A DNA stretch of 64,000 bases from Molanna angustata (Eukaryota; Arthropoda; Insecta; Trichoptera; Molannidae). Below are positions 28,410 to 51,180 of the stretch, one piece after another. The translations under genes and the position numbers were made by a program. The notes beneath the pieces were generated by a model. That model made no database searches, was not told the DNA's origin, and saw only the letters and a program-made list of their open reading frames with translations. The stretch spans positions 16,993,775-17,057,774 of the forward strand of contig OY754984.1 of assembly GCA_963576475.1 (NCBI GenBank), read 5' to 3'. Numbering within the stretch: the first letter of the stretch is position 1; each line of letters starts with the position of its first letter.

Positions 28410-28929
28410 ACAGACATATACCTTCCTTTGTTGTTAAATGCATGAAGATTAAAATTAAGCTGTTCATAATTATAACTACCAAATATCTATGAAATACATT
28501 GGTTTTAACCACACTTAAAAGATAACAATAAACCAATAAATACAATATTATTTACATTTCGAATTTTACTGCTGTCGTTTTCTTTTGTTACAGACCTAAT
28601 GGACACAGGGGACTACAACCAGTGACCCAACTACTTTCATTGTATTAAAACGTAGATTTATATAGATTCATTTGCATTATATAACTTCTTTTCAACCGTT
28701 CAAAAACCAACATTTTTATACACCTGTCATGTAAATTTTGTATATAACCACTAGTCTCAGTCTTGTAGAGCATTATTCTGACGATGTGCTTTGCACGAAA
28801 CGCGTCAACTCCAAGAAATACAATAGAACTATAACCAAGTATTTTTATAACATATCAACGTACAATGGAGTTCTATCAAGAATTGTCGATCGACAAACTA
28901 AACTTACAAAAAAAATATGTTATTTTTGA
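28410..28929 (+). mobile_element. Penelope-like 3' UTR and downstream leader
   Basis: Untranslated sequence after the endonuclease, followed by a second leader in direct orientation. It holds the hammerhead-like motif at 28761-28816 and, at 28865, an ATG opening MEFYQELSIDKLN. That matches the starts at 41020 and 50922, so it is the beginning of the Penelope ORF. A new ORF start after a 3' end is the arrangement expected of tandem Penelope pseudo-LTRs. A splice-acceptor-like TTTTCTTTTGTTACAG lies at 28580-28595. Confidence 0.75.
28761..28816 (+). ncRNA. Hammerhead-ribozyme-like motif A
   Basis: Core CTGACGA (28778-28784), one extra T, then stem II GTGC/GCAC closed by TTT (28786-28796), GAAA (28797-28800), and CGCGTC (28801-28806), which places the predicted cleavage after C28806. 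Stem I pairs 28761-28770 (TCTTGTAGAG) with 28809-28816 (CTCCAAGA) around a TA bulge, with AA/TT next to the core. Stem III is the palindrome ACGCGT without a loop, so it would form only between two molecules or two tandem motifs. Activity is inferred. Confidence 0.65.
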
Positions 28930-29685
28930 TGTGTTGTTTCAATTTAACGGTTTTTATATATATTTCATTTGTGTTTGTATATTTATAATATTTTTTACAG
29001 ACGTTACAACTTTGAAATATTAATATTTATATGGAAATACCTGATTTCTTCTTCCTCTCCTTATCCATTTGTTTTCCTATCATTTCTATGAACTGTTTTA
29101 CATTCAATCTTTTTTAATCTTTTTCCTATTTACTTCTCTTTTTTCTTTATTTTTTGCATGTCATTTCATTACCTTATTGGTATATTAAGTACACATTATG
29201 TCGTATTCTGATTTGTTTCAGAATACGAAAACGTCTAAATCAACGGGCGACCGTGGATATTAGGATTTTATCCGCGCGGTGTGACGTAATGAGTCCCGTA
29301 TAAATTCAGTCAACCTTTTGACATTTCTCATAAACTAAAATTGAGACGGATAAATTTAGACGAATCAGAATAGGATAATATATTGTATTGTTTGTATATT
29401 TAACATGAAATCTGATTGATTGGAAGTTGGGATAAATAGCTGTTTGATAATAATAATTCCGCCAGGGTTCAAATCATAATATGTACTAGAAGTTACAAAT
29501 TAATAAATATGAAAATAAAATTTAGGTTAAAATAAAACCAGGGTTTTTATTTCTATGTTATGAATACTCTCATTTAGGTGACATTTTAAACTGAAACTCT
29601 TGAATTTAACTTCTCGTGTTTTTGATAAATAAAATAGTCTCTCAAATATAATCTTGACTTAAGTCAATATCCTTAAGTCAATATA
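28930..29685. other. No gene recognised
   Basis: AT-rich DNA. A slightly GC-richer patch with CAACGGGCGACCGTGG and CCGCGCGGTGTGACG lies at 29238-29290; nothing else was recognised. Confidence 0.4.
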
Positions 29686-29687
29686 GG

Positions 29688-29877
29688 GGACACGGAAGGA
29701 GCCTCCACGTAGATTGAGTTTCGGTTAACTTCGGAAAAGCAATCGGGCGTCCCTGGAAACGGCAGAATGCCGGCCAATCCTTCCACCACCGGAGCACCAA
29801 CCAATATGATGGTGTTCCGGACACGGAAAGTAAGTAATATCCTCATACGACGAAAAAGATATAGACGAAGTCAGTAA
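29688..29877 (+). other. GC-rich island with short ORF and donor-like site
   Basis: A sharply GC-richer stretch in AT-rich surroundings. An ATG at 29767 opens a 36-codon frame starting MPANPSTTGAPTNMMVFR and ending at 29877. GGAAAGTAAGT at about 29825-29835 matches a splice-donor consensus and would end the coding exon in the middle of the frame. It could be a small exon of an unseen gene or the 5' end of a retroelement ORF. No family is recognised. Confidence 0.3.
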
Positions 29878-30359
29878 AGATACAAAAACAGAAGTTTTTT
29901 TAAGTAATTCCTGTTGTCAGAAAAAAAATTTACATAACATCCGTATGACCTCAGCTTTAGAGGAGATATTACATATTGATAAATACAAGTTACTTATTGA
30001 TGGAGGTCAGCTGTCACTTAATGAAAAGGAAACGCTTTTCTCATCCGGAATCTTACTTCACTTGAACGGACCTTATATCTTATAATTCCTAAACACACTT
30101 TATTATTTAAAAGAAGGTACCTACAAGCAATTGAGACAGCATCTTCCGAGTTTTTTTCTTTCTTTAGAAAATTTATAATTTATTTGTAGATTATCAAAAG
30201 ACCAGTAATTAATATGTCTTAGAGGAAATTCTCCGCTTCAAAAACACATGTTCAAATTCACGAACTGAAGCAGAACGATTTGACGTTGTACATTTTTATT
30301 TGACTAATAAAGAAATTATATTTATTCAAAATTTGTTTCAATAATTTGTCATTAAAATA

Positions 30360-31053
30360 ATGTATTTCTCTTTGTATCAATCTATATTAGAATATGCAAT
30401 TATATCATGGGGAGGCGCTTACCATGTAACAATAGACCCTTTGATAAAACTACAAAAATCCGTTTCAAAGATAATCTACAAGGTACCAATCCGCACTCCA
30501 TCCGACGCATTATTTAATGACTTTAATATACTAAACATATCACAATTATATGCAAAGAACGCTTGTACATACATATATAAAAACATAGACAAACTTGACC
30601 CTACGCAAACATCTAGACCAACTAGACAGACCGAACAGGCTAAACTCCTAATAACTAAACTCAAGACAACTTTTGGACAAAGAAATTTCCTGTATTTTGG
30701 AGTCAAATTATACAACGAACTACCTTTAACACTTAGACAAAACAGTAACTTGAAAATATTTAAGCGAGACATTAAAATTTGGATTAAAAAAGGGGCAGAG
30801 ACTATATTAAAAATAAATTAATCACCTGAACTCATAAAATACTCCCATAGTTACTAACCAAAACTGAAAACTAATAAGACATCTATACACTGTCTCAGAA
30901 CAGGTTTTACCTAGTGAGGCAGTTTATGACAATAGTAAAATATCTGGTAACTATTATGGAACCTTAGTTAAATATATTATAATGCATTAAAAAAAAATTT
31001 GTTACTAGATTTAGAAAAATTGTATTTTATATAATAAATAAATAAATAAATAA
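30360..31053 (+). mobile_element. LINE 3' portion with ATAAATAAA tail
   Basis: The open frame 30360-30821 (153 aa) reads LYQSILEYAIISWGGAYHVT, then IKLQKSVSKIIYKVPIRTPS, NACTYIYKN and FGVKLYNELPLTLRQN with a basic end. The tyrosine-rich start plus ILEY..I.WGG is a LINE thumb motif. The 3' UTR of about 230 bp ends in AAATAAATAAATAAATA (31034-31053). The clade was not resolved. The catalytic palm is missing. Confidence 0.78.
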
Positions 31054-31069
31054 AAAATAAAGATGATTC

Positions 31070-31280
31070 AATAAGGGCGGGGTTTCTTTGCACAGAAAAG
31101 ATCATGTTGAGAGTATGAATCCAAAAAGGCTGCCAAAGATTGTAATGCGCGAGATACCAGAGGTACGCCGACCAACGGGAAGACCATCAAAGAGATGGAG
31201 GGAGAGCTGGACATCCTCGTTCCAGGACCTCTAGAAACAGATCATAGATCTACCAAAAGAGGAAGAAGAAAAAAATAAAT
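31070..31280 (+). mobile_element. RTE-like LINE 3' end (GAA-tailed)
   Basis: Encodes RKDHVESMNPKRLPKIVMRE, then VRRPTGRPSKRWRESWTSSF and QDL before the stop, CAGATCATAGATCTACCA and an AGAAGAAAAAAATAAA tail. It sits directly behind the tail of the previous LINE. Confidence 0.78.
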
Positions 31281-32552
31281 TTGTATTGACAGTTACAACA
31301 ACGAGTTTCGCTACTGCCACCACCACCCGCTCTGTATATGGGCACGCCGGTGACACTCTATTGGTAGCACTGGTTTTACTTTACGCTTGCGTCTCCAAAG
31401 GTGGCGCTATTTAATTTTTTTTATGTTGATATTTTTGAAAATGCAATGTAACATTTTCAGACCTTCAGCATACTTCAGTTGTTGTTTGTTGTGACGCGAA
31501 AAATTTGATCCTTTAAAATCTTGAAGTAAACCAAATAATAAATATAACACGTGTGATTTTGTAAAATTCTTGTTGTTTTCGGTGTTAATCTACATACATA
31601 CCATCACGCCATGTGATGGTGATGGTGTTAATCTATTGCCAGCTTTTTGTATTTTTCGATTATCTTCGCAAGATGGCTGATAAGTTTTGCTGTGTTTTGA
31701 ATAAATTGTCAAGTGAAATACGGCGAAGTGAAGTTATATAGTTTTCCGAAAATCAGTAATAAATCTTTCTTTGTGGAAAATAAATTTAAAAAACCTAATA
31801 ATCTACAATGCACATTTTATTTAGAACCATGTATTTTATGAATTATTTGGCATGATTTTTGAAATATTGCAAATAAAATCCTTCATATGTGTTTTTTTTA
31901 ATAAATAATGATTGAAAAATGGTTATTTTTTATTTAAGTTATCCTTGAATCCGTTCCTCAAAGCTGGAAACATTTTAAAATTTAAATTTAAATTTGCCGT
32001 GGACCGGTCGCGTATTCATTGCCCCTATAGCGGAGATGCAAGAAACCTTATGATTATCCGGTTACAGCTTCTATGTATTGAGTGACACATCTGAAATTTA
32101 CTGAAAGTTTACTTCTGTATTATCTGTGTATATGGGGACTGTAAACGGTCCCGTCACAGAACGCTAAGTGAGCGAAATGATAAAAATGTATTGCATGAAA
32201 AGTAGTTCATAGAACTAGGATTGCATACTCTTATTTACGAGTAAGCGGGAAATCAGAAATTAATATGCGGGACTTGTCCAAATACTCATAATCAAAAGAC
32301 AATTAGTTTTCCTTTTTAAAGAGTACCCACTTGTCTTGTGATTTGACACATTTGAGCATTTTTTTAAATTATTTTAATGGGATTTATATCTAATCTCTAG
32401 GTTTACCATAAAGCGGGACAATTGGCGACTCGCAGACATGAATCGAGGGACGCCTTATTTTAGTTGTGGAAACGAGACGTCACGCCTCACGGCCCGATCC
32501 CACTTGGTCGGGTGTTAGACCCGATATCATATCGGGTCCTCTTGTGGCAATA
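31281..32552. other. No gene recognised
   Basis: Mixed DNA with GC-richer patches at 31300-31400 and 32400-32540. The latter holds the palindrome GACCCGATAT-C-ATATCGGGTC (32518-32538). No protein or RNA was recognised. Confidence 0.4.
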
Positions 32553-33082
32553 CTTTAATTCATTTAAATGATTTGACAAATAATTTTGTATAAATTCATT
32601 CTCATTTAAATGATTGCCGAATAATTTTGTATGATTTCAGTTTCATTAAAAAGATTGACAAATAAACTTTGTGTTAGTTCAGTTTCATTTAAATGATTGC
32701 CAAGTGATTTTGTATTAGTTCAGTTTCATTTAAATAATTGCCAAATAAGTATGTATTAGTTCCGTTTCATTAAAATGATTGACAAATAATTTTGTATAAG
32801 TTCAGTTTCATTTAAATGATTGCCAAGTGATTTTGTATTAGTTCAGTTTCATTTAAATGATTGCTATATAATTTTGTATTAGTTTAGTTTCATTTAAATG
32901 ATTGCCAAATAATTTTGTATTAGTTCAGTCTCATTTAAATTATTTCTGAATGGTTTTGTATTAGTTCAGTTTCGTTAAAATGATTGGCAAATAATTTTGT
33001 ATTAGTTCAGTTTCATAAAAATGATTGCCAAATAATTTTGTGTGAGTTCAGTTTCATTTGAATGATTGAAAAATAATTTTGC
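32553..33082. repeat. 41-bp minisatellite, about 13 copies
   Basis: Head-to-tail copies of a unit with TTTCATTTAAATGATTGCC followed by AAATAATTTTGTATTAGTTCAG. Copies differ at several positions and show no block structure. No link to the satellite at 1-3.3 kb. Confidence 0.93.
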
Positions 33083-33825
33083 ACATTTCTCCGAGTCTCA
33101 CATGAAAACCAAGTTTGTAGGTACATACTCAGCTACACTAACGGACTAACGGCTGGTCGTTTTGTTTCCGTTAGAAGTGAAACTACGTGTTACAATTCTC
33201 GTAACGATTTCAGTACAACTTATTATTGTTAACTTGGTTATGTACAATTTACAACGATATGTTCGTTAATCGAATTGGGTACCAGCAAACTAAGCTTATT
33301 TCTTCCTTTTTATGTAACACCACTTTCAATTCTTATGTGCCTGTTTTTTTTTTGCTTCTACTTATGTAATTTCTATAACTTTTTTTTTCTTGAATTGTGT
33401 AACTTTTTTTAATATTGAATTGTGTAACTATTTTTTTTTCTTTTTCTTTTTTACTTTACTTTTGTAGCCGAATTATTTCTAATTTATGTACTTGTGTAAC
33501 TTGCGTGTGTGATTGAGTGAGAGCTCATGTAATTTTGTGTGCATCCATAATTTGACGTCCAGCACTCGTAGTAATAACCAATATTGTTTTCTTTATGTGA
33601 GAATTGTGAGCTGGATGTCTGTCGATGTACCCTTTTAATAAAAATAGAGAAATAAAATAAATAATTAAAATACATCCTGAAAAAAATTGTTATTATACGA
33701 AATAAAATAATGTAGATTATTGTGCACTTTTCAATGTTTTTTCAAAGGTTGACAATCCCAGAATGTTATTAAATTTACGCCATTTGAATTGTATTGGTAT
33801 GTTGAAAATAAAAAAAAACATTTCC
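33083..33825. other. No gene recognised
   Basis: T-rich DNA (33290-33470) and an A-rich end at 33640-33720; no supported feature. Confidence 0.4.
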
Positions 33826-34014
33826 TAGATTTTTTTTTTAAAAGAAAATGAATATGTCCTTGTTAAACAAGTACATATACATCTTCCTACGTTCCCTAAA
33901 ATAAGCAAATAAATGCTTGTGCTTAGGTGAACGAAATCGGTCGAGGCAGGATTCGAACTCGCGACAACTGGATTACTAGCCCAGCGCGCTAACCGCTCTG
34001 CCACCGACCCATTC
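33826..34014 (-). mobile_element. tRNA-derived SINE, family 2, copy 2
   Basis: The minus strand begins GGGTCGGTGGCAGAGCGGTT and has the B-box GAGTTCGAATCC, closer to consensus than the copy at 4.1 kb. It shares the body ACAAGCATTTATTTGCTTA and the T/A-rich end. It is directly followed by repeat R. Confidence 0.82.
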
Positions 34015-34062
34015 ATAGATCATCAGAGCACGAGTGTTTTGAGAGAAGAAATTGTATTTATT

Positions 34063-35440
34063 CCAACTGTCGATTCGTTCAAGAGAATGAAATTCTACTG
34101 AAGGAAGAGGCAGTTTAAATCCAAGCGTGTACGAAGGAATATTTTGTATAGCGTAGTGGACTTTTTGCATGCTAAAAACACCAACTTAGAGGCTTCGCAG
34201 CATATATGTTCCAGTACATGGATTTACTCAGAATTCGGAGTAGAACATTTTATGTGAGTTTTGTGTGTCAGTGTGTGTGTGTCTGTATGTGTGTATGTAT
34301 GTGTGTCTCTGTGTGTGTGTGTGTGTGTCTGTCCCCCCCCTTATCCGCTCAATTTACTGAGTCCAAAATTTCAGAATATATAAACAGTTATATGCCTACA
34401 AAACTTTTATACTCAGAATTGTGAATTTTTGTTTCAGTCAGGGGTTATCCACTTTTGTGTTTTTAGTTTATTTTTCCATATATCTCAGAAACTTGAAAAG
34501 CTAAACGCCGAAAATTGGTATAAACATAGATAAATACAAAATCTCAAATTAGTTTAAAAAAAACTCCAGGGTTTCTCAAATATTTTTTAATAAGAAAACT
34601 ATTTTTTCTATGATAAATTTATGAGTTTCTTCTTCTTCTTCGTTTCCTCAATGCTGAGGGTTGCGATCTATGGGGCCGCCAATGGACAGAATTAGTCGCC
34701 TCCATTCCTCTCTGCCCTCCGCAGCTCGCACGGATAAAGGTCGTTCCCAGTCATCTCCTTAATTTGGTCACACCATCGCGCAGGAGATCTGCCTCTACTT
34801 CTTTTGCCTGGTACACTTCCTGTGATAATACTTATTTACAGGTTACCTGGCTCTCTCCTGGCGATGTGACCAAAGAATCTCAATACCCGGCGGCTGCATA
34901 CTGTAGACAATCTTTCTTTTATCTTGATCTCTTAAAGGACCGAGTCATTTGTTCTTCTTGCAGTCCACGGAATTTAACTGTCTATATTTCCAAAGTTTTT
35001 AAAATTTTCGAAAAAAGCCGAAACACCCCAACTAGATAATTTAATTTTCTATAAAAAATATTAACATTGTAGTAGAAGGTACATCTCAATTTTTTTTTAA
35101 CAATTTTTATAAAAATTTAATTGAGTGACGACATCGCTTCATACAATTTGTATGGCAGTCGCCTATACACAATATCTAAGAAGACTCAATTGTTTGATAC
35201 TTAATCTCCAAACATACATACACACCATCATGCTGTTTCATATTACGGGTAAGAAAAGTGACTGACCTACATACTATCCTATCTTGACATACATACCTAC
35301 ATGTGTTGTATAGAAAACAAAATATCTTAAAATATTCAATAATTTGAATTTATGGGTAAATAGTTTGGTACTTATTCTTCAAGTATACATAGTATCGCTA
35401 TCGACAGTTGGATCTCATGTGTTACATGCAACAAGTTTAT
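34063..35440 (+). repeat. Repeat R copy 2, interrupted by a LINE
   Basis: Same order as the copies at 21.0 and 53.5 kb: ACACCAACTTAGAGGCTTCG, GTGT tract with CCCCCCCC, CCGCTCAATTTACTGAG, TTTCAGTCAGGGGTTATCC, AACTAGATAATTTAATTT, GTGTTACATGCAAC. CCAACTGTCGATTCG at 34063 mirrors the reversed CCAACTGTCGATAGCG near 35411, an inverted pair, though homology among copies runs slightly past it. A LINE fragment occupies 34627-34975. Confidence 0.78.
34627..34975 (-). mobile_element. RTE-like LINE nested in repeat R
   Basis: The minus strand contains GKRSRGRSPARWCDQIKEMT and LRRAERNGGD-like remains, then IATLSIEE, and ends at the left in a GAAGAAGAAGAAAC tail. The copy at 54.1 kb reads ATGAGTTTAACTGCC straight across the site. 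The C-terminal motif resembles GRSPTRWSDLVKS of the element at 8.2 kb. Confidence 0.75.
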
Positions 35441-35456
35441 TTATTTTACATTCATT

Positions 35457-35960
35457 AATTCTCAGGCAGCTAATAGGTACTATGTGAAATATTAATTTAA
35501 CACGCAACCAATGACAAGTTGCCACATTATAGAGACTTACGATATTAATCGTAAGTCTCTAATATTTCTTCTCGGGCAACTAACAGGTACTATGTCAAAT
35601 ATTTATTTAACACGCACCCAATAACAAGTTGTCACATTCTAGAGACTCACGATATTAATAGCAAGTCTCTAATATTTCTTCTCGGGCAACTAACAGGTAC
35701 TATGTTAAATATTTATTTAACACGCACCCAATAACAAGTTGCCACATTCTAGAGACTCACGATATTAATAGCAAGTCTCTTATATTACCTACTTCTCGGG
35801 CAACTAACAGGTACTATGTCAAATATTTATTTAACACGCACCCAATAAAAAGTTGCCACATTGTGGAGACTTACGATATTAATCGTCTCACAGATCCAGA
35901 CTGAAAACACAACTAAACACTGTGTCTCCGCCGGGTATAGAACCCGGGATCTTTGTAGAC
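35457..35960 (-). mobile_element. SINE family 1 with tandem tail (four 110-bp units)
   Basis: The SINE head lies at the right (CCGGGTATAGAACCCGGGAT, reversed). From 35457 to 35880 its body/tail segment is repeated: units start near 35458, 35568, 35678 and 35792, each beginning CTTCTCGGGCAACTAACAGG (first unit diverged) and containing GAGACTCACGATATTAATAG or a variant. Unit lengths are 110, 110 and 114 bp before the last unit joins the head. The pol III boxes of the head are mutated. Confidence 0.85.
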
Positions 35961-36127
35961 AATTATTGTATGCAATAGTCAATTTTGTATCTCAAAAGCT
36001 CATAATTACAAATATCCATCATTTAAAACTATGTCTACGCGGGGAATCTAATCTGGAACCCATAGCTTAGCAGTCAAATATTATATGGATAGGTTTCATT
36101 TCTGAATCAACAGACGGCTGTAAAACC

Positions 36128-36235
36128 CATATACGTAGGTCAACGTCTGCCTCAAAGACCATCAAAAATATGGGATGATAGGTGGAGATCCGCATCCCAG
36201 GAGAGAGCCGATAAAAAAATCATGAATTAAAAAAA
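36128..36235 (+). mobile_element. RTE-like LINE 3' scrap
   Basis: Reads GQRLPQRPSKIWDDRWRSAS, then QERADKKI, the worn counterpart of RPPKRWRDSWTSASQE at 23.0 kb. Only about 30 residues remain. Confidence 0.55.
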
Positions 36236-37870: not shown

Positions 37871-37984
37871 GCCATATCGTGCTGTTTTGTGTTTGATTGC
37901 TGTCATTGCTGTGTTTTGTTCATTTTGATTTTAAACATTTGATTCACTAGTACCATACGATAAAAATTAAAAAAAAACTAGGTA

Positions 37985-38624: not shown

Positions 38625-38864
38625 ACCTGATCTCGATTTCCTCTTCTTATTCCTTCCCAATCCCTTTTTTGTTGCTATGATGTTTTTCTTTTTATTTATC
38701 TTGGTGTTATGTATATTTTATTTGTTCTTTTGTAGCATTAATTTTTTTTTATTAATGTACATGTATACCTAATTCTGTCACACTGTAATCTGGTTGGTTG
38801 GAAGAAATTGCCTACTGTCAATAAGCCCACCAGTGTGCATTATAATTGTTTATATTATGTACAA

Positions 38865-38870
<6 letters not shown>
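38625..38870 (+). mobile_element. CR1/Zenon-like LINE 3' UTR
   Basis: CCTGATCTCGATTTCCTCTT through GTAATCTGGTTGGTTGGAAG, the hairpin TTGCCTACTGTCAA, CCCACCAGTGTGC and GTTTATATTATGTACAAAAA. It is nearly the same as the 3' UTR at 16.0-16.25 kb and runs into the AAAT microsatellite, which is its expanded tail. Confidence 0.75.
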
Positions 38871-39193
<323 letters not shown>

Positions 39194-39261
39194 ACATATA
39201 TGATGCACCCTGGCAGGGTTATTGCCATTGGGTAATTTCTTCCAACCAATCAGATTACATA
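39194..39261 (-). mobile_element. Inverted CR1/Zenon-like LINE 3' tail
   Basis: The reverse complement reads TGTAATCTGATTGGTTGGAA, GAAATTACCC, AATGGCAATA and CCTGCCAGGGTGC, the same 3' hairpin region as on the other side of the microsatellite but in opposite orientation. Confidence 0.7.
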
Positions 39262-39770
39262 TTCTACCTATCGTTCCTTCCACTGCTGAATGTAGGCCTC
39301 TTCCATCTGTCTCCATTTTTCTATATCCTGTGCTGCTTCAATCTATTTTTTTCCCTTCGACCACAACAATCTAGTGTGGCCGACCGACACCCCTTTTGTT
39401 TTCCCATGGCCTCCACTTTAAGACTTTAGGAGTCCATCTTGAATTTGGCTGTCTGGCTACGTGTTCTGCCCATTGCCATTTCAATTTTGCGATCCGATCC
39501 ATGATATCGGCGACTTTTGTAACGGACTTGCCCCTACACTTTTCAACCTGGCTGTAGAATATGTTTTAAGGAAGACATATAATAATAATGCTAAACCCAA
39601 CATATACATCCATAGCAGCCAGATTGTAGGGTATGCTGAAGACCTCAATGTAGTATGAAGATCCCTAGTAGCAGTGCAAGAAGTTTTTGAGCCCTCAGAG
39701 ACAGCAGACAAAGAAATGGGACTAGCAATAAATGAAGACAAAACAAAAATAAACCCTGGATTTTTTTCTT
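39262..39770. mobile_element. RTE-like LINE with internal inversion
   Basis: The minus-strand part (39262-39500) encodes, in broken frames, WAEHVARQPNS, VLKWRPWENK, RGVGRPH and AQDIEKWRQMEEAYIQQWKE, the C-terminal end. The plus-strand part (about 39508-39770) encodes GLAPTLFNLAVEYVLRK and SSQIVGYAEDLNVV, then KEMGLAINEDKTK, the RT palm. YAED has a glutamate where YADD is expected, a loss of a catalytic aspartate. The upstream part is therefore inverted next to the downstream part, with the region between them missing. Confidence 0.75.
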
Positions 39771-40690: not shown

Positions 40691-40805
40691 TGTTTAATTT
40701 GAGATGACATAAATACATAGTTAATTGATTTCGTTATCTTGCATTACTTTAACATTTAAATTTTACTGTTTTATGTTGATGGCGTTAAAAAAACAAATAC
40801 ATATT

Positions 40806-41065
40806 TTAAATAATAAATAAATTTGCTATGGTAAAATAAAACCAAAGTTTTCAGTTCTACTAATTTAATGACACTGACTAGTTTCGGTCATCCAGTGACC
40901 ATTCTCAAAGGACACTTTGAAAATGGTCACTGGATGACCGAAACTAGTCAGTGTTATTAAATTAGTAGAACTGAAAATTTGGTTTTATTTTACCATACAA
41001 AATTTATTTATAATTTGAAATGGAGTTCTACCAAGAATTGTTCGTAGAAAAGTTAAAAAAAAAAA
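40806..41065 (+). mobile_element. Penelope-like leader with inverted repeat
   Basis: Near-perfect inverted repeat: arms about 40810-40908 and 40914-41012. The right arm runs into an ATG at 41020 that opens MEFYQELFVEKLKKK, the same start as at 28865 and 50922. The left arm stops being similar just where that ATG would lie. After about 24 codons the frame ends. This is a 5' end of a Penelope-like element preceded by an inverted copy of its own leader. Confidence 0.75.
40911..40955 (+). ncRNA. Hammerhead-ribozyme-like motif B
   Basis: Stem I GACACT (40911-40916) pairs with AGTGTT (40950-40955). Core TTGAAAA (40917-40923), extra T, stem II GGTCA/TGACC with loop CTGGA (40925-40939), GAAA (40940-40943), CTAGTC (40944-40949). 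Predicted cleavage follows C40949. Stem III is the palindrome ACTAGT. Core positions 3 and 8 are T and A instead of the usual C and G, so pairing is kept. The inverted copy at 40868-40908 keeps the core but not stem I. Confidence 0.65.
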
Positions 41066-42465
41066 TACAAATTTTATGCCCTGATTCATACTGATCCAAT
41101 TTAATTCAATACTCAATGAAACGCATAGCAGTCAATTATAATACTCTCTCTCGTACGATATTCAAATATACGAGGCTTCACTATTAAGTGGTGACGGATT
41201 GGAATATAACTGCAAATTTAAATAATAAATTAATTTATAAAAATATTTTATTGCACACTGTAAATAAAAAATATGAAATTGGGATCGGATTCAAGTTCAA
41301 AGAGTTGGTTTCGGCAATGTATTGATGAGGAGGTAAAGTGACGGAATGTATGTGGCTGGATTGGATGTCAGTGGAATATATTCCGCCTTCCCATTATCCA
41401 GTACCTATGCCCTTTTCCTACCTACATACATTGTCCATCTTCAATACTTCACCCGCAACAATAATATCATCACCGCTCAGTAGCGAACGCATTCATTGGT
41501 CAGTATCAAATCCGCATCGCTCGTATAAGTATTATGTAAATCCGTATCGCTCGTGTATCTGAACCTTATTAGCTGCAATATTTATAGCCTCATGATTAAC
41601 GAAGACCATAGCCCACCGTTGATGATACGAGCCGATCGACAGATCTTTATTCATGTGTTGATCGTTCAACAGAGCAGAGTCGCGTTAAATCTTTATCTAT
41701 TAGATCCGACCCACTACATCACAAATCAATTAAGTTATTATTTATATTGTAATTTTTTTTTTTTCGAATAAACCAGAGTTGATTATGTAAGTAGTGCTTT
41801 TGATTGAAAACCTTCATCACTATAAATTATATATTTTCAATTATTTAAAGCAATATCATACTTGGAGGTATATGTAGGTACACGCACCTTTGCAATATAA
41901 TCTCTTCTGATGTTAATAAATAAACAAACATATACCCTCAAACTCGTATAAGTATCAAATCCGCATCGCTCGTAGTATGAAACTAAACTTCATATAAGTT
42001 TTGCATCGCTCGTCTGAGTAAAAAACAGAACGATTATCGTTCACACATCCATTTCGATTTATTAAAAACACCTCCTTCACACATTCCTATACAATTGAAA
42101 GCCTATGTCTCCTACATAGGCACTTTTTTGTTTACCTGTCTTGTTTGTATAAGGCAGTCTAAAGTTCCTTTTTGAAGTGAACTTCAAAATTTTAAATTAT
42201 TTTTTGAGCAAATAATATATTTTCTGCCATATTATGGCAGAAAATGTTCTTATTTGAATAGCATATAATTATGATAAAAAAAATCAAACAAATTGAATTG
42301 AATGAAAAATTATAGGTTTATTGTTTTTTGTCATCATAATTCTATGTAATGTGATTATGAAGTGCCTACATAAAGTGACAGTTTCAAGATTGAAAAAAAA
42401 ATCATAAAAATTAAATATTTTTAATACTGTTTTATTCGATTATGAATACTAAAATTGACCAAACT
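41066..42465. other. No gene; degenerate CATCGCTCG repeats
   Basis: AT-rich DNA with scattered CATCGCTCG or TATCGCTCG words, each preceded by AAATCCG or similar and three followed by GTATAAG or GTGTAT, at about 41515, 41548, 41963 and 42003. A small perfect palindrome with TTTTCTGCCATA lies at 42230-42243. Short frames carry no known domain. Confidence 0.45.
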
Positions 42466-42469
42466 ATAA

Positions 42470-43935: not shown

Positions 43936-44067
43936 TATTTCTATTATTATTTTGTAAACATACGGTCTTAAATACAAGTAATACAAAAATATATAAGTAC
44001 TCCTTTAGAGGACCAAGTAAGTTTACATAAATAATCACTTTTGTGTACATTGTTACGGTAGAATTAT

Positions 44068-44302
44068 TTTTTATTTTATTTTATTTTATTTAATATTGCT
44101 TCTCGGGCAACTAACAGGTACTATGTCAAATATTAATTTAACACGCACCCAATAACAAGTTGCCACATTCTGGAGACTTACGATATTAATCGTCTCACAG
44201 ATCCAGACTGAAAACACAATTAAAAACTGTGTCTCCACCGGGAATCGAACCCGGGACCTTTGGATCAGCAGTCAGATACCCAACCAACTGAGCCACGAAG
44301 CC
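44068..44302 (-). mobile_element. tRNA-derived SINE, family 1, with TSD
   Basis: Flanked by AGAATTAT at 44060-44067 and 44303-44310. The minus strand starts TGGCTTCGTGGCTCAGTTGG with an intact A box and has the B box GGTTCGATTCC and CCGGTGGAGACACAG. The body matches 19.9 kb, and the tail is TAAAATAAAATAAAATAAAA. At 235 bp this is the most complete SINE here and could serve as the family reference. Confidence 0.92.
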
Positions 44303-44310
44303 AGAATTAT

Positions 44311-44691
44311 AATAGAGAAAGGAATGGGAAGGATATTAGGAGTTGGATGGAAAGAGAAAGAGGAGATCTTGTGAAAACAATACTAATACAGAAGCCATAG
44401 AGGCATTCAGGGACTTCATTACTGATGATTTAAATCTAACACATTAGAGAGGTTTATATTCTCAAAGAACACATTGTAATTATTGTTGCAAGTTCTGTAA
44501 ATAAATGCATGCTGTAAATTTTTATGCATGCTGTTTTACATGTAGGTAATTTGAATGGTAATGGATGTGTGACGTAATGTGACTGAGGAATACGACATAG
44601 CCATTAACTAATTAGAAGTCATTTTTGAATGATTGTTGACTTAAATCTCGCAATCATCAGTTCTGAGGCCAATTCTAATAGGAGAAAAGGC
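44311..44691. other. No gene recognised
   Basis: AT-rich DNA with no supported feature. Confidence 0.4.
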
Positions 44692-45226
44692 TTAAAGCAG
44701 CCCATTCACGATCGTGCCATTCGGCGTCGTTCCATATGGACGGGGCTCCATTTGGAGCATTGAGAAATTTTCATCACACTCACGGGCGCGCCATCGAGCC
44801 ATCAAAATTAGTATACGTAAGCGGTCGGTGCTTTCGCATAATAAGTTCTATTTTTTTTTTAATTTTCAAGTAAAAATGAGTTATAATTATGATGATGAGT
44901 TTTATACAACTGCTATTTAGCGGTTTGTTTATATATAAATAGAAAAAAACAAAGAGAAAATATTGTATTTTTGCATTCACGAGAGTATCAAACAGCTCGG
45001 CGCAATGAGATGGCGCAATGTACCGCTGGTTTTCACACTCACGAGCATGCCGTGCCGACAGGATGCGCCGCGCCGTTTTCGCGGTACTACAGAGTTTCGA
45101 TCGTTTGGAATTCCATTTTGGTGTGTCAGGCTAATTGAGCTGTGCGGGATTTGACATTCACGAGCGCATTTTGGAGTGATGGCAAGCCATTTCGAAGGAT
45201 GGCAAGATTGTGAATGGGGGCCTTAA
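44692..45226. mobile_element. TTAA-bounded non-autonomous element (piggyBac-like)
   Basis: TTAA at 44692-44695 and 45223-45226 flanks inverted ends: AGCAGCCCATTCACGATCGT at the left and, reversed, GGCCCCCATTCACAATCTTG at the right, both continuing GCCAT. A TTAA duplication points to the piggyBac superfamily. CATTCACG or CACTCACG motifs recur inside at about 44709, 44776, 44976, 45038 and 45153. It is clearly GC-richer than its surroundings. Short frames inside encode nothing recognisable. Confidence 0.8.
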
Positions 45227-45830
45227 GGTATGATGTCAAGAATTTCCATAACTTTGTCAAAAGACAGTTCAGTGATTTTTAAGTTATCTGCTTACCTCCA
45301 GTAGAATGATAGCGTGATAGTGTATTTGTAATTTTAAATAGTTGGGATAAAAAATCGAATTCACAACATTTATCATGGATTTTTGTATTCAAATAAAATG
45401 ATTCTATTATCGAAGATAACTCTTTAAATGCCTGAGCTGGATTTATACGTATCGTTCGGCCTGATGGTCATAAAGTATTAAAATGACTTTTAAATCAATA
45501 AACCCTCGTCTATTAAGGGAGCCCGTGGATAGTACGTAGCTAGTTTGATTTACTGCAACAGGCCAGTCAGATGTGATAAATTGGTGGTTGGGGATAACGT
45601 ATTTTTGTGATTTATATATAAAAAAACCTGTCACATTCCCACTAATGGTGTCTGAAAAACAGTTTCCAGCAGATAAATGATAATCATTAGCTTAAAGTGA
45701 CTGGTATCGAATGGGTTATATTTTAAGTGAAACATAATAGGTATATTAGAAATAATCATTTGAGGCAGACACTCAACTCTCAAGGACACTGATTATTGTT
45801 TTTAGGAATTTTGAAAATAATATAAACCAT
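45227..45830. other. No gene recognised
   Basis: AT-rich DNA with no supported feature. Confidence 0.4.
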
Positions 45831-46560
45831 TTTTACTCCTCACTAACCCAAGGGGATATAGTGGGGAATTATGATTTCGCAATTTATAAAGGTATTTTTT
45901 TATTGTAGATTATCAACTAGTATTATGCTGAGATTGTATTCTGAAAGTTTCATCACAATGTATCTGTGTGTGTGTGTGATATGTGGTGTGTGCTGTGTAC
46001 GGCATGTTTATTTTACTTAATCGATTAAAGACTAAATTACTCATTCGATTTCTTTAAATTTTGCAAATATGTATATCTACGATTATTTTTTTTTTATTAT
46101 TTAAATTTGTAAATAGTTGAAAATTGCTAATATTGAGAGTCTTCACTGGTCCATATGCTGGTAACTCATTTGTGTTTATACATTGTAGATATGACAGTCT
46201 GTGCTCTAAAATTGAAATAAAATAAATCTAATACCTACTCGCTTAGACCCCATTAGATTTTGAAGGATATCTGAAATGTGCTTAATTTTTTTTAACTGTC
46301 AAATATTTAAAAGTGACCTCAAGCTCCAGAAACATTAAACTATATATTTTTTTTTCAAATTGGTAAAAAGGCATATCACCTTCATAAAATGGCATTGAAG
46401 AGTTATCAAGTTTTAGTAATAAAATATTTAAATAAAAAATAATTTAACAAACTCATTTCATGAAAATGCTGAATATTTTCCATACAAAATTTGAATACTT
46501 TATAGAATGACTTGTTAGTGAGGAGTATAGCGTTGGCCACAACCCACTCGTTTTTAAAGT
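45831..46560 (+). mobile_element. ACTCC-family element, full-length copy
   Basis: Begins TTTTACTCCTCACTAACCCA and has GGGGATATAGTGGGGAATTA, GATTATCAACTAGTATTATG, a GTGTGT tract, TTTACTTAATCGATTA, then GAGGTCACTTTTAAA (reversed in part) and ends TTGTTAGTGAGGAGTATAGC. ACTCCTCACTAAC is thus present at both ends in inverse orientation. Homology with 49.3 and 50.0 kb extends about 40 bp beyond the right inverted repeat (GTTGGCCACAACCCACTCG), so the inverted repeats may be subterminal. Confidence 0.78.
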
Positions 46561-46689
46561 GATTTTTACTCAAATAGCTTCGATTTGTCAATAGACGGGG
46601 TTATAAATTAGTTTCATTTTTATTCGATAGATGGCTATAGTGTTTTCAACTTATTTTCAAACGCTGCTAATTTACCATGCAACATATAT

Positions 46690-46960
46690 TATCATCGAAT
46701 TATATATAAACTGTGAAGCACCGGCTCAGAATAGTGCTTCCACTCTTTTCTATTATCATCGTTTCGGATTTCCCGTAAAAGCCGGGTAATAGAAAATACA
46801 ATAGGCAACAATAACATCTCAAATAGTTCAGCAATGAGGTTTACCATCACACATTCTGAATGTAGTGCCTTTTTAGGTGAGACGAGACTGGTATGTGGGG
46901 ATACACGCATGTTTCGTTTTTCTTTCGTATGTACACCCACACAACTGTCACTGGTTAATA
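46690..46960 (-). repeat. Repeat G copy 2
   Basis: CTGTGAAGCACCGGCTCAGA, CTATTATCATCG, AAAGCCGGGTAATAGAAAAT, CAGCAATGAGGTTTACC, ACATTCTGAATGTAGTGCC. The most complete of the three copies. No coding content. The minus frame 46692-46940 is incidental. Confidence 0.65.
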
Positions 46961-46974
46961 ATTAATTGAAATGA

Positions 46975-47135
46975 TATTTATAGCGCCGTTTTTGTGATAA
47001 CCTCACCTCAAGGGCGTTTTGAATATATTCCAGGTTTTTGTAAGACTCGCGGAAGAAGTGAGTTTTCAGGTGTTTCCTGAATAGTGTTAAGTTGTCGATT
47101 CGCCTCAGTTCAGGTGGTACTTCAAATTATGGGAT
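46975..47135 (-). mobile_element. CR1/L2-like LINE 3' end
   Basis: ATTTATAGCGCCGTTTTTGT, GATAACCTCACCTCAAGGGC, AAGACTCGCGGAAGAAGTGA and CAGTTCAGGTGGTA match the 3' end at 9.77-9.90 kb almost base for base. About 160 bp remain. Confidence 0.82.
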
Positions 47136-47159
47136 GTGCCGTGATAGTATGATTCAAAT

Positions 47160-47295
47160 TTCGCATTGACAATTTGTGTACGTTGCGAAAGCGCTTCAAG
47201 TGATGACGTCATAAACTATTCGATAACTGGTCGAAAGCTCTTTAGGTGCCTAATTTACCGCTTCGTCTCTGTTGAGATATTTTATTTGTAAAAAA
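47160..47295 (-). repeat. Repeat E, diverged
   Basis: GTACGTTGCGAAAGCGCTTC, AGGTGCCTAATTTACC and TTCGTCTCTGTTGAGATATT correspond to the repeat E words GAACGTTGCGCAAGCGCAT, AGGTGCCTTGATTTCC and TTCGTCTCTATTGAGATAAT at 52.3-52.4 kb. Confidence 0.6.
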
Positions 47296-47299
47296 AAAA

Positions 47300-48040
47300 C
47301 AAATTTATTGTATTTTTAATAAGGTGAATCATCCAATAAGTCTAGTCTGGTGATACCTGGGTTTCACATTTTAATATTTAGGTAATTTTGGATAAACTTG
47401 TAAATTATTAAGTTATATAACCAAAGTTAATATTAGGTAAGTGTATGAATGTAATATAAATTAATTATTTGCTTAATAGTCGATATACCTCGTAATAAAG
47501 ATAGTAACGTAATAATATTAATATTAATATAAATAATAATAATAATGAGAAATTCATGAAGTTTACTAAGTATCGGCATCAGTCCCAAATGAACATATGA
47601 ACTGTTCTCCCGAAAGATAATTTCGGAACTGGGACGAGACATTCCGCCTCAGCGGTGATTATTAATAGTGGAAGATCTTAATCTTGAAGCCTCAGGTGAA
47701 CACTAGCACAAGTCTCCTTTTTTGTATCACAAACTTTGAAAGCAACATATTATACTCTTCTTCTTCTAACGGCTATTTATTTATATATTTATATTAGTGA
47801 TCACGCAGATGTCAAATTAGGTCCAAAATTTCTTTCAAAATTTAAGTCATTTGACCTAATCTATGATAAAAAAAACTTCATGAATTCATCAAGAGGTACA
47901 AAATTTTGTTTTCACATATTGCAAACTGTAGTTGTTTATTTAATTACCAATTATATTGATTTACAGTAGTTTGTGTATTTTTCTTTAACATGAAATGTAT
48001 TTGAATTTATAGCCACTGCGTTTGATAATTCATTTTTGAT
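47300..48040. other. No gene recognised
   Basis: AT-rich DNA. TAATATTAATATTAATATAA near 47513 is simple sequence. Confidence 0.4.
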
Positions 48041-48044
48041 TCCC

Positions 48045-48180
48045 CCCCAGGTTTTTCCAACACCGGTATGGTAGTTGGTGTCCGGTTGATAGAGACTCGC
48101 TTGGTTTTCAACATTCGTTCTGCCCAACCCGTTCTCGCCAAAGTTTGATTCTTATTTCATCTAGTGGTGCGCATTTTTTG
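48045..48180 (-). mobile_element. LINE fragment like that at 18.1 kb
   Basis: GGTAGTTGGTGTCCGGTTGA and GCCCAACCCGTTCTCGCCAA resemble GGTAGTTGGTGTCCCGGTCA and the GTGCTTGCCAAAG segment at 18.06-18.13 kb. Short and frameless. Confidence 0.5.
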
Positions 48181-48299
48181 GTTTTCGATAGGAAACTACG
48201 TCTCGAATATTGAAGAGTTCTTTTACACTTTTATAACAACATTAATAAGTTTAAGATGGCATAGCGGAAAAAATCATTTTGAAACAAATTATAAAATTA

Positions 48300-48485
48300 T
48301 AATAAATAGAACAGTGGACATAGAGGTGAATCCTAGAAAACCATTTACCATTTGGATTTCCACAATAATCAGAGATATCAAGGAGGCGAGGCTTCGTTCC
48401 GAGGATGCGGAGAACAGAAGGACCCGTAGAATGATTATGAGAGCCAACCCCGACTGGGACAAAGGCTAGAAGAAGAAATGACAAA
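48300..48485 (+). mobile_element. RTE-like LINE 3' end
   Basis: Reads ISTIIRDIKEARLRSEDAEN, then RRTRRMIMRANPDWDKG and a stop, followed by AGAAGAAATGAC. The DI..A.L..EDA.NR..WR....ADP pattern is a common RTE-type C-terminus. Confidence 0.65.
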
Positions 48486-49019
48486 TCTGTATAAAAAAAT
48501 AATCACAATATTTTCTTCGACATACACACTTTTGCATCTGGATTCGAGATATGTCTTCAGACTAGAGAGTGTTTATATTACTTATCCTGTGCCCATAATT
48601 ATTCCTTATCTACGGGGCTGAAAATATCCTTGGTCCCGGCTCCTTTGTTATTGCGATCGACTGATATTGAACAAGGATGTCAAAATGAACATTTCATTAC
48701 CATTATAATCTTTGGCAGATTATTACACAAAACACGACATCCATTAATAATAATCGTCGCTGTTGGTGGCCAATAGAGGTGCTATTGTAACCAATTGTCC
48801 ATAAAACCTCCAGAAAAATAAGAGGCAGGACACTACGCGACACACAAAGAAGCACTACGATCCGAGAAATGTGTGATACGTATCGATTTGCCTCTTTTAT
48901 CTTGTGTTTAGGTACATACCTAAAAAAATAAACTAAAGTAAAGAAACTTAAGTTGACACGAAACTCAAATAATTAATTTAAGTAATTAAAAAACGAGAAA
49001 AATTTAAGTAATTAAAGTT
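48486..49019. other. No gene recognised
   Basis: AT-rich DNA; a short repeat TTAAGTAATTAAA occurs twice near 48975 and 49005. Confidence 0.4.
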
Positions 49020-49235
49020 GACACGAAGACGATTCTGAAGAGATCATGTGGGGAGAGCGGGTTCGGATCGAGTGGTGAGGATGGCAGCGGATGGGGAGAT
49101 AACAAATGGCAGACCCCCTGGAAGACCACCCAAACGATGGAAGGATAGCTGGACGTCCACTTCACAAGAGCAGGCTCCGAGAATAACAGGACACAGTCCT
49201 AACTAAAGCAGAAGAAGAAGAAGAATTTAAAAAAA
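49020..49235 (+). mobile_element. RTE-like LINE 3' end (GAA-tailed)
   Basis: RRFWRDHVGRAGSDRVVRMA, then NGRPPGRPPKRWKDSWTSTS and QEQAPRITGHSPN before a stop. Tail GCAGAAGAAGAAGAAGAAT. A sister of 22.9 kb, with fewer changes from the apparent consensus. Confidence 0.8.
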
Positions 49236-49284
49236 TGTGGACACAGTTTCCAAAGAGTCCTTTACGTTGAAATGTTGAATAATA

Positions 49285-49845
49285 TGAGTGCGTTGTGGCC
49301 AACACTAAACTCCTCACTAACAAGTCATCCTATAAAGTATCCAAATTTCGTATAGAAAATATTCATCATTTTCATGAAATGAGTTTGTTAAATTATTTTT
49401 TATTAAAATATTTTGTTATGAAAACTTGAAAACACTTCAGTGCCATTTTATGAAAGTGATGTGTCTTTTTACCATTTTGAAATTTTAAATTTTCTGCGCT
49501 TGGGGTCACTTTTAAATATTTGACAGTTAAAAAAATCGAGAAGCACTATTCAAATATCCTTCAAAATCTTATGAGATCTAAGCGAGTATAGATATATGTA
49601 CATATTTGCAAAATTTGAAAAGAATCGAATGAGTACTTTAGTCTATAAGTGATAAAGTAAAATGAACACTCTGTACATAGCACACACACACATGTACCTA
49701 CATTGTGATGAAAGTTTCAGAATACAACCTCAGCATGATACTAGTTGATAATCTGCAATAAAAAAATAGCGTTAAAAACTGCGAAATCATTACTCCCAAC
49801 TATATCCCCTTGGGTCAGTGAGGAATAAAAATATTTCATGTCAGT
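49285..49845 (-). mobile_element. ACTCC-family element, reverse orientation
   Basis: GTTGTGGCCAACACTAAACT, CCTCACTAACAAGTC at the left and CCCCTTGGGTCAGTGAGGAA, TAAAAATA at the right. The interior matches 45.8-46.5 kb reversed, including AATGCCATTTTATG-type and GATAAAGTAAAATGAAC words. It lacks about 180 bp of the other copy. Confidence 0.78.
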
Positions 49846-50039
49846 CCATATATTGTTTACATTTATAGTCAATGTGAAAACTTAATATCGAACGCAGATG
49901 TTTTATACAGCAAACAAATACAAATACAGAAAATAAATTTGGTATGAAATACAGACTTGTTCAATTTTATAAATAAATTCTGAATGTTTCAGAACTCTAA
50001 CTGGTCAAATGGTAAGTTAAAATTAATAGCGAAATTCCA

Positions 50040-50790
50040 GTACGGACAGACGGGTGAACTTAAACATCTCAAAAGATCTTAAAAACGAGTGGGCTATGGC
50101 CTACTTTGTACTCCCAAGTCACAAAATATGAAAGTATACAAAGTAATTTTGTATGGAAAATTTTCAACATGAAATGAGTTTGCTAAATTAGTTTGATTTA
50201 AATATTTTATTACGAAAATTTGATAGGTTTTCAATGCCATTATATTATGAAAGTGATGTGCCACTTTAGCAATTAGATCAAATTTTAAGTTTCCCGAGCT
50301 TGGGGGTCACTTTGAAATATTTTACAGTTAGAAAATTGATAAGCACTGATCAGATATCCTTCAAAATCAAATGTGGTCTAAGCGAGTATTAGATACTTAA
50401 TTTTTTAAGAATTGAATGCGTACTGTAGTCTATAATCGATAAAGTAGAATAAACTTGCCGTACGTAGCACATAGTACACAGCACACACACTAATACATTA
50501 TGATAAAACTTTCAGAATACAATCTCAGCATGATACTAATTGATAAAAATAGTAATAATGAAAATTTCCTTGAACCCTGCGCAAGTGGCGAGTTTATTGC
50601 CGTATGGCAATTTTTATTTCTCCTCTGCTGGGAATCGAACCCAAGACGTCCGCACAGAAACCGAACGGCTTACCAACTGTCACGGCGGTCGGCTATCTGC
50701 AATAAGAAAATAACCTTAAAATTTGCGAATTCGTTGCGAACTCCCCAATATATCCCCTTGGGGTGCTGAGGAGTTATTAGTTAGGCTGTT
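50040..50790 (-). mobile_element. ACTCC-family element carrying a SINE
   Basis: AAAAACGAGTGGGCTATGGC at the left, TTCAATGCCATTATATTATG, GAGCTTGGGGGTCACTTTGA, GATAAAGTAGAATAAAC, and at the right CCCCAATATATCCCCTTGGG with GTGCTGAGGAGTTATTA. Its ends are more diverged than in the two preceding copies. A SINE lies at about 50565-50697, where the sister copy at 49.75 kb reads TTGATAATCTGCAATAA without a break. Confidence 0.75.
50565..50697 (-). mobile_element. tRNA-derived SINE, family 3
   Basis: The minus strand begins AGCCGACCGCCGTGACAGTT, has the B box GGGTTCGATTCCC, then AGAAATAAAAATTGCCATAC, GGCAATAAACTCGCCAC. The tail part (TTGCC....GGCAA followed by TAAACTCGCC) is the same hairpin plus adjacent word that ends the CR1/Zenon-like LINEs, best matched at 24.38 kb. 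It is nested in the ACTCC element. Confidence 0.8.
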
Positions 50791-50799
50791 ATTATACTG

Positions 50800-51180
50800 T
50801 TGATAAAAATGATTCTGCAAATGCATCCTTAAAAGATCTGAAAATACAAAACGGAGTAATTTAATTATATTATAGGTAATTAGATTTAATTTTTTGATCG
50901 AAAGTTCCTGATGGAATTCCATTAAATTTTTCTTAAATTTTTTAATAAACATTAAAAATAAATAAAAAATTTATAACTGTTTATTAAAACTACAACCGGT
51001 TTCATGCTAAGCACATTTTCAAGTAGTCAACTACTTGAAATGTGCTTAGCACTTGAAAATGTGCTTAGCTCAATTACTTGTAAATGTGTTAAGCACGAAA
51101 CCGGTTGTAGATTATGATCTTAATAAACAGTGGACTTAAGTTAAAAACGTTTTTAATTTTTAATGTTTATTAAAAATTTT
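50800..51180 (-). mobile_element. Penelope-like leader with inverted repeat, reverse
   Basis: Inverted repeat: left arm about 50935-51030, right arm about 51030-51172, both containing the CCGGTTGTAG block and the TTTTTAATGTTTATTAAAAA block. The left arm continues on the minus strand to an ATG at 50922 that opens MEFHQELSIKKLNLITYN. The right arm stops matching just before the corresponding ATG. The coding similarity ends by about 50830, next to the ACTCC element. Confidence 0.75.
50988..51028 (-). ncRNA. Hammerhead-ribozyme-like motif C
   Basis: In minus-strand reading: stem I GACTAC (51028-51023) pairs with GTAGTT (50993-50988). Core TTGAAAA (51022-51016), extra T, stem II GTGC-TTA-GCAT, GAAA (51003-51000), CCGGT, T50994. 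Predicted cleavage follows 50994. Stem III is the palindrome ACCGGT. Core positions 3 and 8 are T and A. Opposite-facing partial copies at 51030-51110 are weaker: one has TTGTAAA in the core. Confidence 0.6.

Follow-up and report, generated by a model that had tools for sequence, protein, structure and literature searches.

A stretch of 64,000 nucleotides (nt) from the trichopteran Molanna angustata (GenBank assembly GCA_963576475.1, contig OY754984.1, forward-strand positions 16,993,775 to 17,057,774), referred to here as the window, carries three short motifs that are predicted to be minimal type I hammerhead ribozymes at the 5' end of the leader RNA of Penelope-like elements (PLEs). A preliminary description of the window had placed them at 28761-28816 (+), 40911-40955 (+) and 50988-51028 (-), and these places and strands were verified in the sequence, as were the stems II of all three copies and the GAAA with its self-complementary hexamer (ACGCGT, ACTAGT and ACCGGT in copies 1, 2 and 3). 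Copy 1 has the form ATTATT-CTGACGA-TGTGCTTTGCAC-GAAACGCGTC (28772-28812, +), with a cut predicted after 28806. Copy 2 reads GACACT-TTGAAAA-TGGTCACTGGATGACC-GAAACTAGTC-AGTGTT (40911-40955, +; predicted cut after 40949) and copy 3 reads GACTAC-TTGAAAA-TGTGCTTAGCAT-GAAACCGGTT-GTAGTT (50988-51028, -; predicted cut between 50994 and 50993), both with a U3-A8 core. In each copy the stem III hexamer lacks a loop and is too short for a monomer, which is the form of a dimeric minimal hammerhead. An open reading frame (ORF) start of the MEF(Y/H)QEL type lies 58, 70 and 71 bases past the first base beyond the predicted cut in copies 1, 2 and 3, respectively.

A descriptor composed after the motifs were known, which demanded the core, pairing at 3-8, four or more base pairs in stem II, the GAAA and a hexamer of palindromic form, matches on both strands of the window exactly the three motifs and the mirror arm of copy 2, and 200 dinucleotide shuffles gave 0.03 matches per window. 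When 200 kb taken unselected from this genome were scanned with a slightly looser version, one match (locus L305) resulted, and the stretch showed no leader ORF start. The covariance-model check named in the preliminary description turned out negative, since no Rfam hammerhead family matched in the window either at gathering score or at E<=10. Rfam models cover hammerheads without a stem III poorly. The single motifs also fold no better than their shuffles (z of -0.43, -0.85 and -0.20 for the three).

Copy 1 appears to consist of a 5'-truncated Penelope, of which the 3' end is present, and a leader behind it, because the relatives of the coding remnant upstream of it carry PF26215 and the GIY-YIG family PF01541; this partial-tandem form is described as usual for Penelopes (PMC8969392). 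The remnant of the putative Penelope C-terminal region, comprising the first part of the GIY-YIG endonuclease region, occupies 27572-28153 (+) and continues in another frame to 28404. A read-through query of 27572-28404 matches the proteins P0001 (45% identity over 99% of the query, PF26215) and P0002 (40% over 88%, PF01541), out of four homologs in total (P0001-P0004), and it is through these that a GIY-YIG endonuclease ORF is linked to copy 1. The first-frame piece alone gave no protein match at E<=0.001, probably since candidates were limited to 0.55-1.75 times the query length, and no Pfam family at E<=0.1; searches of Pfam, NCBIfam and PDB returned nothing useful on the endonuclease pieces. 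Beside copies 2 and 3 no coding part was seen, and no reverse transcriptase domain was recognised beside any of the three copies in searches that were not directed at reverse transcriptase, which leaves the C-terminal remnant at 27572-28404. Between the remnant and the hammerhead, a TATATAA at 28741-28747 (+) lies 31 nt upstream of the copy 1 stem I, and a site of the TATATAAC type was read by eye in 16 of 20 copies of the same family. The ORF start (MEFYQELSIDKLNL) and tail of copy 1 occupy 28865-28908 (+), and the copies of this family end near AAACTTA(G).

Copies 2 and 3 are, as judged from their arrangement, short insertions of two leaders head to head. Each lies within an inverted repeat of about 100 bp per arm, which the preliminary description had overlooked. 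The insertion of copy 2 spans 40809-41051 (+), with boundaries accurate to within a few bases, and is composed of an inverted leader, a direct leader and an ORF-start tail. Its inverted arm (40803-40910, -) carries a mirror hammerhead with a TTGAGAA core and a stem I of only 4 bp by the descriptor, and its ORF start and tail (MEFYQELFVEK) occupy 41020-41051 (+). A direct repeat on the left (40784-40808), presumed to be a target-site duplication (TSD) plus edge, matches 41052-41076 in 23 of 25 bases, while by exact matching the flanks share only seven bases. The insertion of copy 3 (50888-51189, -) comprises an inverted leader at 51051-51189, a direct leader at 50925-51025 and a tail at 50922-50888; the repeat that flanks it at 51190-51209 is 80% identical to 50868-50887 and is presumed to be an old TSD. 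The hairpin of the inverted repeat has a predicted energy of -145.8 kcal/mol in copy 2 and -97.4 kcal/mol in copy 3, and in copy 2 this hairpin of about 100 bp would swamp the hammerhead at -10.7 kcal/mol. A retrozyme identity was considered and rejected for both copies, whose arms are inverted and do not form tandem direct hammerhead units.

The three copies represent three families, numbered here after them, which were followed through the genome (995 Mb in 131 contigs). Whole-genome searches returned 1326 and 1221 candidates for copy 2, 1442 for copy 3 and 1037 for copy 1; about 40 candidates were scored per search, and these copy numbers are first-look counts and no census. The copies read numbered 77 in family 2, counting that of the window, 40 in family 3 and 21 in family 1. 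For family 2, the query of sample 1 (40 copies) spanned the hammerhead and favours complete arms, and that of sample 2 lay 3' of the cut site, was independent of the hammerhead and favours tail-bearing copies; sample 2 comprises 37 new copies out of 40 distinct loci, the other three being already in sample 1. Segment comparisons used 116 ungapped segments of at most 154 in family 2 and 64 of 73 in family 3.

At the level of these families, the stems differ in sequence and remain paired. The consensus of family 2 is GACACU-UUGAAAA-U-GGUCA/UGACC-GAAACUAGUC-AGUGUC and that of family 3 is GACUAC-UUGAAAA-U-GUGC/GCAC-GAAACCGGUU-GUAGUC, and family 1 has CTGACGA...GAAA...T C, the conserved core of type I hammerheads. 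One extra U stands between A9 and stem II in all three families, and the ACCGGT of stem III is kept in 48 of 64 family-3 segments. When covariation was counted on the three consensus sequences over stem I, the 3-8 pair and stem III, eight of ten pairs changed on both sides (all six of stem I, the 3-8 core pair and one of stem III) with 100% of cells paired, and none of 500 shuffles reached as high, in a statistic that has only three sequences and whose shuffling leaves their relatedness in place. Sliding the pairing partners reduced the paired cells to 17-58%. In the MAFFT alignments a gap was misplaced in stem II of family 2, and they were used solely for the other helices; with strands set by hand, two of the four stem II pairs differ on both sides, families 1 and 3 sharing the same stem II there. 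Stems I and II thus adjoin the core with compensatory changes at the consensus level, as in a type I hammerhead. Inside family 2 no compensatory change was seen across the 116 segments, whose copies are too alike.

These comparisons modify what had been read from the window copies. Covariation in all stems, claimed for the three motifs, is stronger between the family consensuses than between the window copies themselves, and one of the three stem I helices named at the time falls away. The helix TCTTG-TA-GAG/CTCCAAGA of copy 1 was a chance pairing, because family 1 pairs ATTATT with AATAAT directly on the core and this pairing is lost in the window copy, where AACTCC stands in place of the AATAAT found in 18 of 20 fetched copies (an alignment read by eye) and the 3' strand of stem I is broken. 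In stem I of copy 2 the final T of AGTGTT, and in stem II of copy 3 the GCAT, differ from the commonest letters of their families; the window copies are individually decayed. The further claim that the fold, not the sequence, has been selected gains from the two-sided changes and the shuffles, but not from the single motifs, which are no stabler than shuffled sequence. In family 3 the bases upstream of the motif are variable, and its leaders seem to fall into two subtypes, one of them with GTAGGTT (7 nt) duplicated exactly where the 3' strand of stem I lies.

The core itself differs between the families in a way that the preliminary description had missed. In copies 2 and 3 the C3-G8 pair is replaced by U3-A8, and this is the state of both families: the core TTGAAAA was found in all 40 direct arms of sample 1, and U-A at 3-8 in 113 of the 116 family-2 segments and 61 of the 64 family-3 segments. 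The change is probably older than the insertions, because both arms of copies 2 and 3 carry it. With U3 and A8 and the remaining conserved core in place, families 2 and 3 are rejected by the strict definition of PMC3088659 and accepted by a definition that asks for a paired 3-8. According to Perreault and colleagues, several hammerheads found in nature have U3-A8, and these authors cite work in which such swaps were active in vitro (PMC3088659). In PAc, the Poseidon element of Anolis carolinensis, a C3G/G8C swap partly restores cleavage (PMC11167929). The variant is therefore compatible with ribozyme activity while lying outside the strict consensus, and we infer a ribozyme role for the leader motif.

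Many insertions of family 2 are sharply bounded. In 39 of the 40 sample-1 copies the longest shared flank has a median of 12 bp and reaches at least 10 bp in 34, mismatched pairs giving a median of 5; locus L270 has no shared flank, and for family 3 the flanking duplication was measured on the window copy. In family 2 the right arm, which bears the tail, stops at GTTAAAAAAA in the ORF start, some 40 nt past the beginning of the ORF, and the inverted arm ends near the ATG. A TSD, an ORF-start tail and an optional inverted pseudo-long terminal repeat (pLTR), the marks of a PLE leader, are thus found in families 2 and 3. Near a family-2 copy at L244, a family-3 hammerhead (2836-2864) was seen about 1.1 kb further on.

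The junctions between the arms vary from copy to copy. Between CAAA and TTTG, the family-2 centre takes 27 forms in the 40 copies of sample 1, with a symmetric loop of 0-2 nt in 23 of them, and bases beyond both arms are present in 20 of the 40 centres, three of which could be templated if the start lay 1-2 nt further up. Family-3 centres, readable in 28 of 39 copies, take 25 forms. Arm starts were compared in 59 of the 77 family-2 copies, leaving out two with a tail on both sides and 16 without a second arm by the anchor (among these, L325 and L342 have one in the sample-2 alignments). The two-tailed copies are L319, truly so, and L277, apparently through the ATG of another leader that encloses it; at L277 the family-2 palindrome apparently lies reversed within another Penelope leader beginning ATGGAATTCCATCAAGAATTAG. 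The arms start at least 10 nt apart in 15 of the 59, or in 13 once L329 and L334, which are even in the sample-2 alignments, are set aside. Two methods agree on six of the 59 one-tail copies in which the arm without a tail extends 5' past the tail-bearing arm by 8 nt or more; as each arm of these copies has sequence that the other lacks, neither could be a copy of the other, barring later deletion at the centre. Several inverted arms of sample 2 are also truncated separately from the direct arm. Nine variants are common to both arms and 36 are unshared, the latter number including alignment-edge artefacts; the common ones point to one source RNA or locus.

The 5' ends of the arms bear on the template. 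In the family-2 reference, 29 nt separate the TATA box from the putative transcription start, and the cut site and the ATG follow at +39 and +110. Among the 37 direct arms of sample 2, 13 start at -3 to +6, 12 contain the promoter, 11 start inside and one lies within 4 nt of the cut site; among the inverted arms, 11 start at -3 to +6, three lie within 4 nt of the cut site, nine start elsewhere and 14 are absent. Of the 47 promoter-less ends, 24 fall at the first base of stem I, taken as the start site, and four at the cut site, where the one direct and three inverted ends in 37 copies are not clearly above scatter. Because arm ends pile up about 29 nt after the TATA box, we infer that the first base of hammerhead stem I is where transcription of family 2 begins; it is no more than a guess that the extra G of GACAC was copied from a cap. 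Of the 37 direct arms 36, and of the 23 inverted arms 15, pass the cut site in the 5' direction by more than 4 nt. Since most arms reach beyond it in this way, the insertions appear to have mostly used RNA that was uncut by its own hammerhead. Five inverted arms (L320, L325, L328, L341 and L342) begin between +61 and +78 (between +73 and +78 in four of the five), which may mark a further stop or start site of the reverse transcriptase.

We consider it probable that these observations have a common explanation in hammerhead leaders, two-sided priming on uncut RNA, end joining and a ribozyme that serves tandem read-through RNA. The endonuclease of the element would break both target strands, and leader RNA of a single source would serve both 3' ends as template for complementary DNA (cDNA), each cDNA starting internally at one of two alternative sites. 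Such two-sided priming is plausible because PAc cuts and extends both strands. As a rule both cDNAs would extend past the uncut hammerhead as far as the 5' terminus of the RNA, and the joining of their ends would give a head-to-head junction particular to each insertion. Hammerhead cleavage would then usually have no role in setting the 5' end of the inserted template, and the hammerhead would be kept as a fold, most likely for trimming or unitising tandem read-through RNA as a dimer. A broader claim seems to us evenly balanced, namely that Penelope integration is often two-sided, and usually so in two families, through a staggered break of about 12 bp, uncut leader RNA and joined cDNAs, with a lineage-specific U3-A8 hammerhead at the leader start that acts on tandem read-through RNA.

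Several observations weigh against this explanation. In family 3, loops of at most 2 nt occur in only seven of 28 centres, and loops of up to 40 nt would permit self-priming. The nine shared variants fit one arm copied from the other equally well as two cDNAs from one source, and later deletions at palindrome centres could produce uneven arms. The inverted arm is missing from the 14 sample-2 copies noted above, and only two of 40 scored family-1 copies have an inverted match. No autonomous element of family 2 or 3 came to light in searches with leader queries. As for the template, start-site ends make up about half, rather than most, of the promoter-less ends in sample 2, and the four ends near the cut site make some cut templates possible. 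The sixth stem I pair rests on an uncertain 5' base, which is C in promoter-bearing family-2 copies and G in half of the palindromic ones, and Rfam recognises no hammerhead in the window.

Inverted leaders could also arise by self-priming, in which the end of a nucleic acid strand loops back onto it and serves as primer for its copying, as has been proposed for rotifer Penelopes (PMC3846280). The palindromic centres of families 2 and 3, the variants common to both arms and the many family-3 centres with long loops would suit this course, yet we regard it as unlikely here, given the very short symmetric loops in 23 of 40 family-2 copies, the six of 59 copies whose arms each carry sequence that is missing from the other arm, the arm starts at least 10 nt apart in 15 of 59 (with L329 and L334 not upheld by the alignments) and the existence of insertions, L330 and L344 among them, in which one leader stands alone between flanking repeats. 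It is still less probable that the palindrome was amplified as a unit, by fold-back or in the manner of a miniature inverted-repeat transposable element (MITE), with centres that diverged later through palindrome instability. High copy number and nearly identical arms are what unit amplification would give, and long palindromes are generally prone to centre deletions; but in sample 1, 28 direct and 20 inverted arms out of 40 each match the consensus without a change over 98 bases, and yet 27 forms of the centre exist. Moreover, the left and right arms of the 40 copies are not told apart by any variant, half of the centres hold extra bases, and family 2 also contains leaders that are single, truncated or promoter-bearing.

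Other alternatives concern the hammerhead itself. Its likeness in copies 2 and 3 might be incidental, a promoter or protein-binding leader being the object of selection and the ribozyme being dead with its non-canonical core. The UUGAAAA core does break the strict consensus, the template 5' end of most arms is not set by the hammerhead, and mutants of PAc show that cleavage is dispensable for insertion in vitro (PMC11167929). We hold this to be doubtful, although it deserves serious weight, since stem I, the 3-8 pair and stem II show two-sided changes across three families, and U3-A8 hammerheads are natural, with swaps reported as active in vitro (PMC3088659). Finally, everything described here might be chance pairing in AT-rich, palindromic DNA, where single motifs fold no better than shuffles and one stem of the preliminary description was indeed due to chance. 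This we find scarcely credible against an expectation of 0.03 motifs per window where three and a mirror arm are found, the same motif in 116 family-2 and 64 family-3 segments, and slid partners that pair in 17-58% of cells as opposed to 100%.

The window and the associated searches yielded further observations that stand apart from the leaders. A near-perfect inverted repeat with a short loop at 52222-52299 is MITE-like and matches mir-3910 (E 2.2e-09, below the gathering score), and an AT-rich, near-perfect hairpin at 58705-58803 matches plant miRNA families, likewise below their gathering scores. A long simple-repeat array at 38850-39337 (-) reads FIYLFIYL in all three frames. At 41502-41974, a 24-bp repeat (AGTATCAAATCCGCATCGCTCGTA) is present in two identical copies 449 bases apart, with a 67% copy between them. 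Two ORFs on the minus strand resemble the reverse transcriptase of long interspersed nuclear elements, one at 8255-9115 with an RVT_1 match just under the cut-off (E 1.8e-06) and one at 25518-26294 with no Pfam match at E<=0.1. Pattern scans of viral contigs gave at least 240 loci, with a stem II of at least 4 bp in at least 23 matches to the canonical pattern and at least two to the U3-A8 pattern; one such viral contig (L048, 9868-9898) carries a canonical hammerhead-like CTGATGATGGACTAAATGTCCGAAACCGGTA with a palindromic stem III.

The insertion of PLEs, their inverted ends resembling long terminal repeats and the function of their hammerheads are the questions on which the finding bears, and its best value lies in testing how Penelopes insert. 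Each family offers about a thousand candidates for leader insertions, and in family 2 many are young with clean boundaries, so that predictions can be counted, such as the symmetry of junctions, the variants shared by arms and the fall of 5' ends at the transcription start or at the ribozyme cut site. If the proposal is true, two-sided priming yields very many short, palindromic, ribozyme-bearing insertions and accounts for inverted pLTRs without self-priming. A set of natural, predicted U3-A8 hammerheads is also added in a eukaryotic retroelement lineage. To our knowledge, both the Penelope families with a U3-A8 core and the evidence drawn from the junctions of many copies are new.

The general kind of the three motifs, the minimal PLE hammerhead, is already known, and was reportedly treated by Cervera and de la Pena in 2014 and by Lunse, Weinberg and Breaker in 2017. 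That hammerheads occur in Penelope leaders, which the preliminary description took as established, is borne out by literature already in print (PMC7761336, PMC6155905), and a review calls their role in vivo a mystery (PMC7761336). By the descriptions given in PMC7761336, PMC6466107 and PMC10085705, the minimal hammerheads, which lack a stem III proper, share with ours the type I order, the GAAA, a tiny self-complementary stem III suited to dimers and the position in the pLTR; compared with those descriptions, families 2 and 3 differ in having U3-A8 in place of C3-G8 and a motif that begins at the putative transcription start. The natural hammerheads with a U3-A8 core share the covarying U-A pair at 3-8, but the main text of the paper that describes them does not mention Penelope (PMC3088659).

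Among known insertion systems, PAc (PMC11167929) resembles our families in its internal start of reverse transcription near the ORF start, in two start sites that bound the tail, in the cutting and extension of both target strands, and in insertion without need of hammerhead cleavage. Its ribozyme cut site lies inside the ORF, whereas that of the family-2 reference is 71 nt upstream of the ATG, and the main text of that study contains no analysis of genomic head-to-head junctions. Among the open-licence papers listed by our searches, none was seen to give a two-sided explanation for inverted pLTRs. Metazoan retrozymes, as presented in PMC7229834, are likewise short non-coding hammerhead repeats that have been suggested to be moved by PLEs; they are tandem repeats with type I hammerheads, in contrast to the inverted leader pairs seen here. 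The Penelopes of Adineta vaga, in the account of PMC3846280, share inverted head-to-head pLTRs, palindromes at the junctions, short TSDs and an inverted copy that is shorter by approximately the tail. Those elements are present in low copy and are explained by self-priming, whereas in Molanna angustata solo leader pairs occur in high copy, with junctions that favour two cDNAs.

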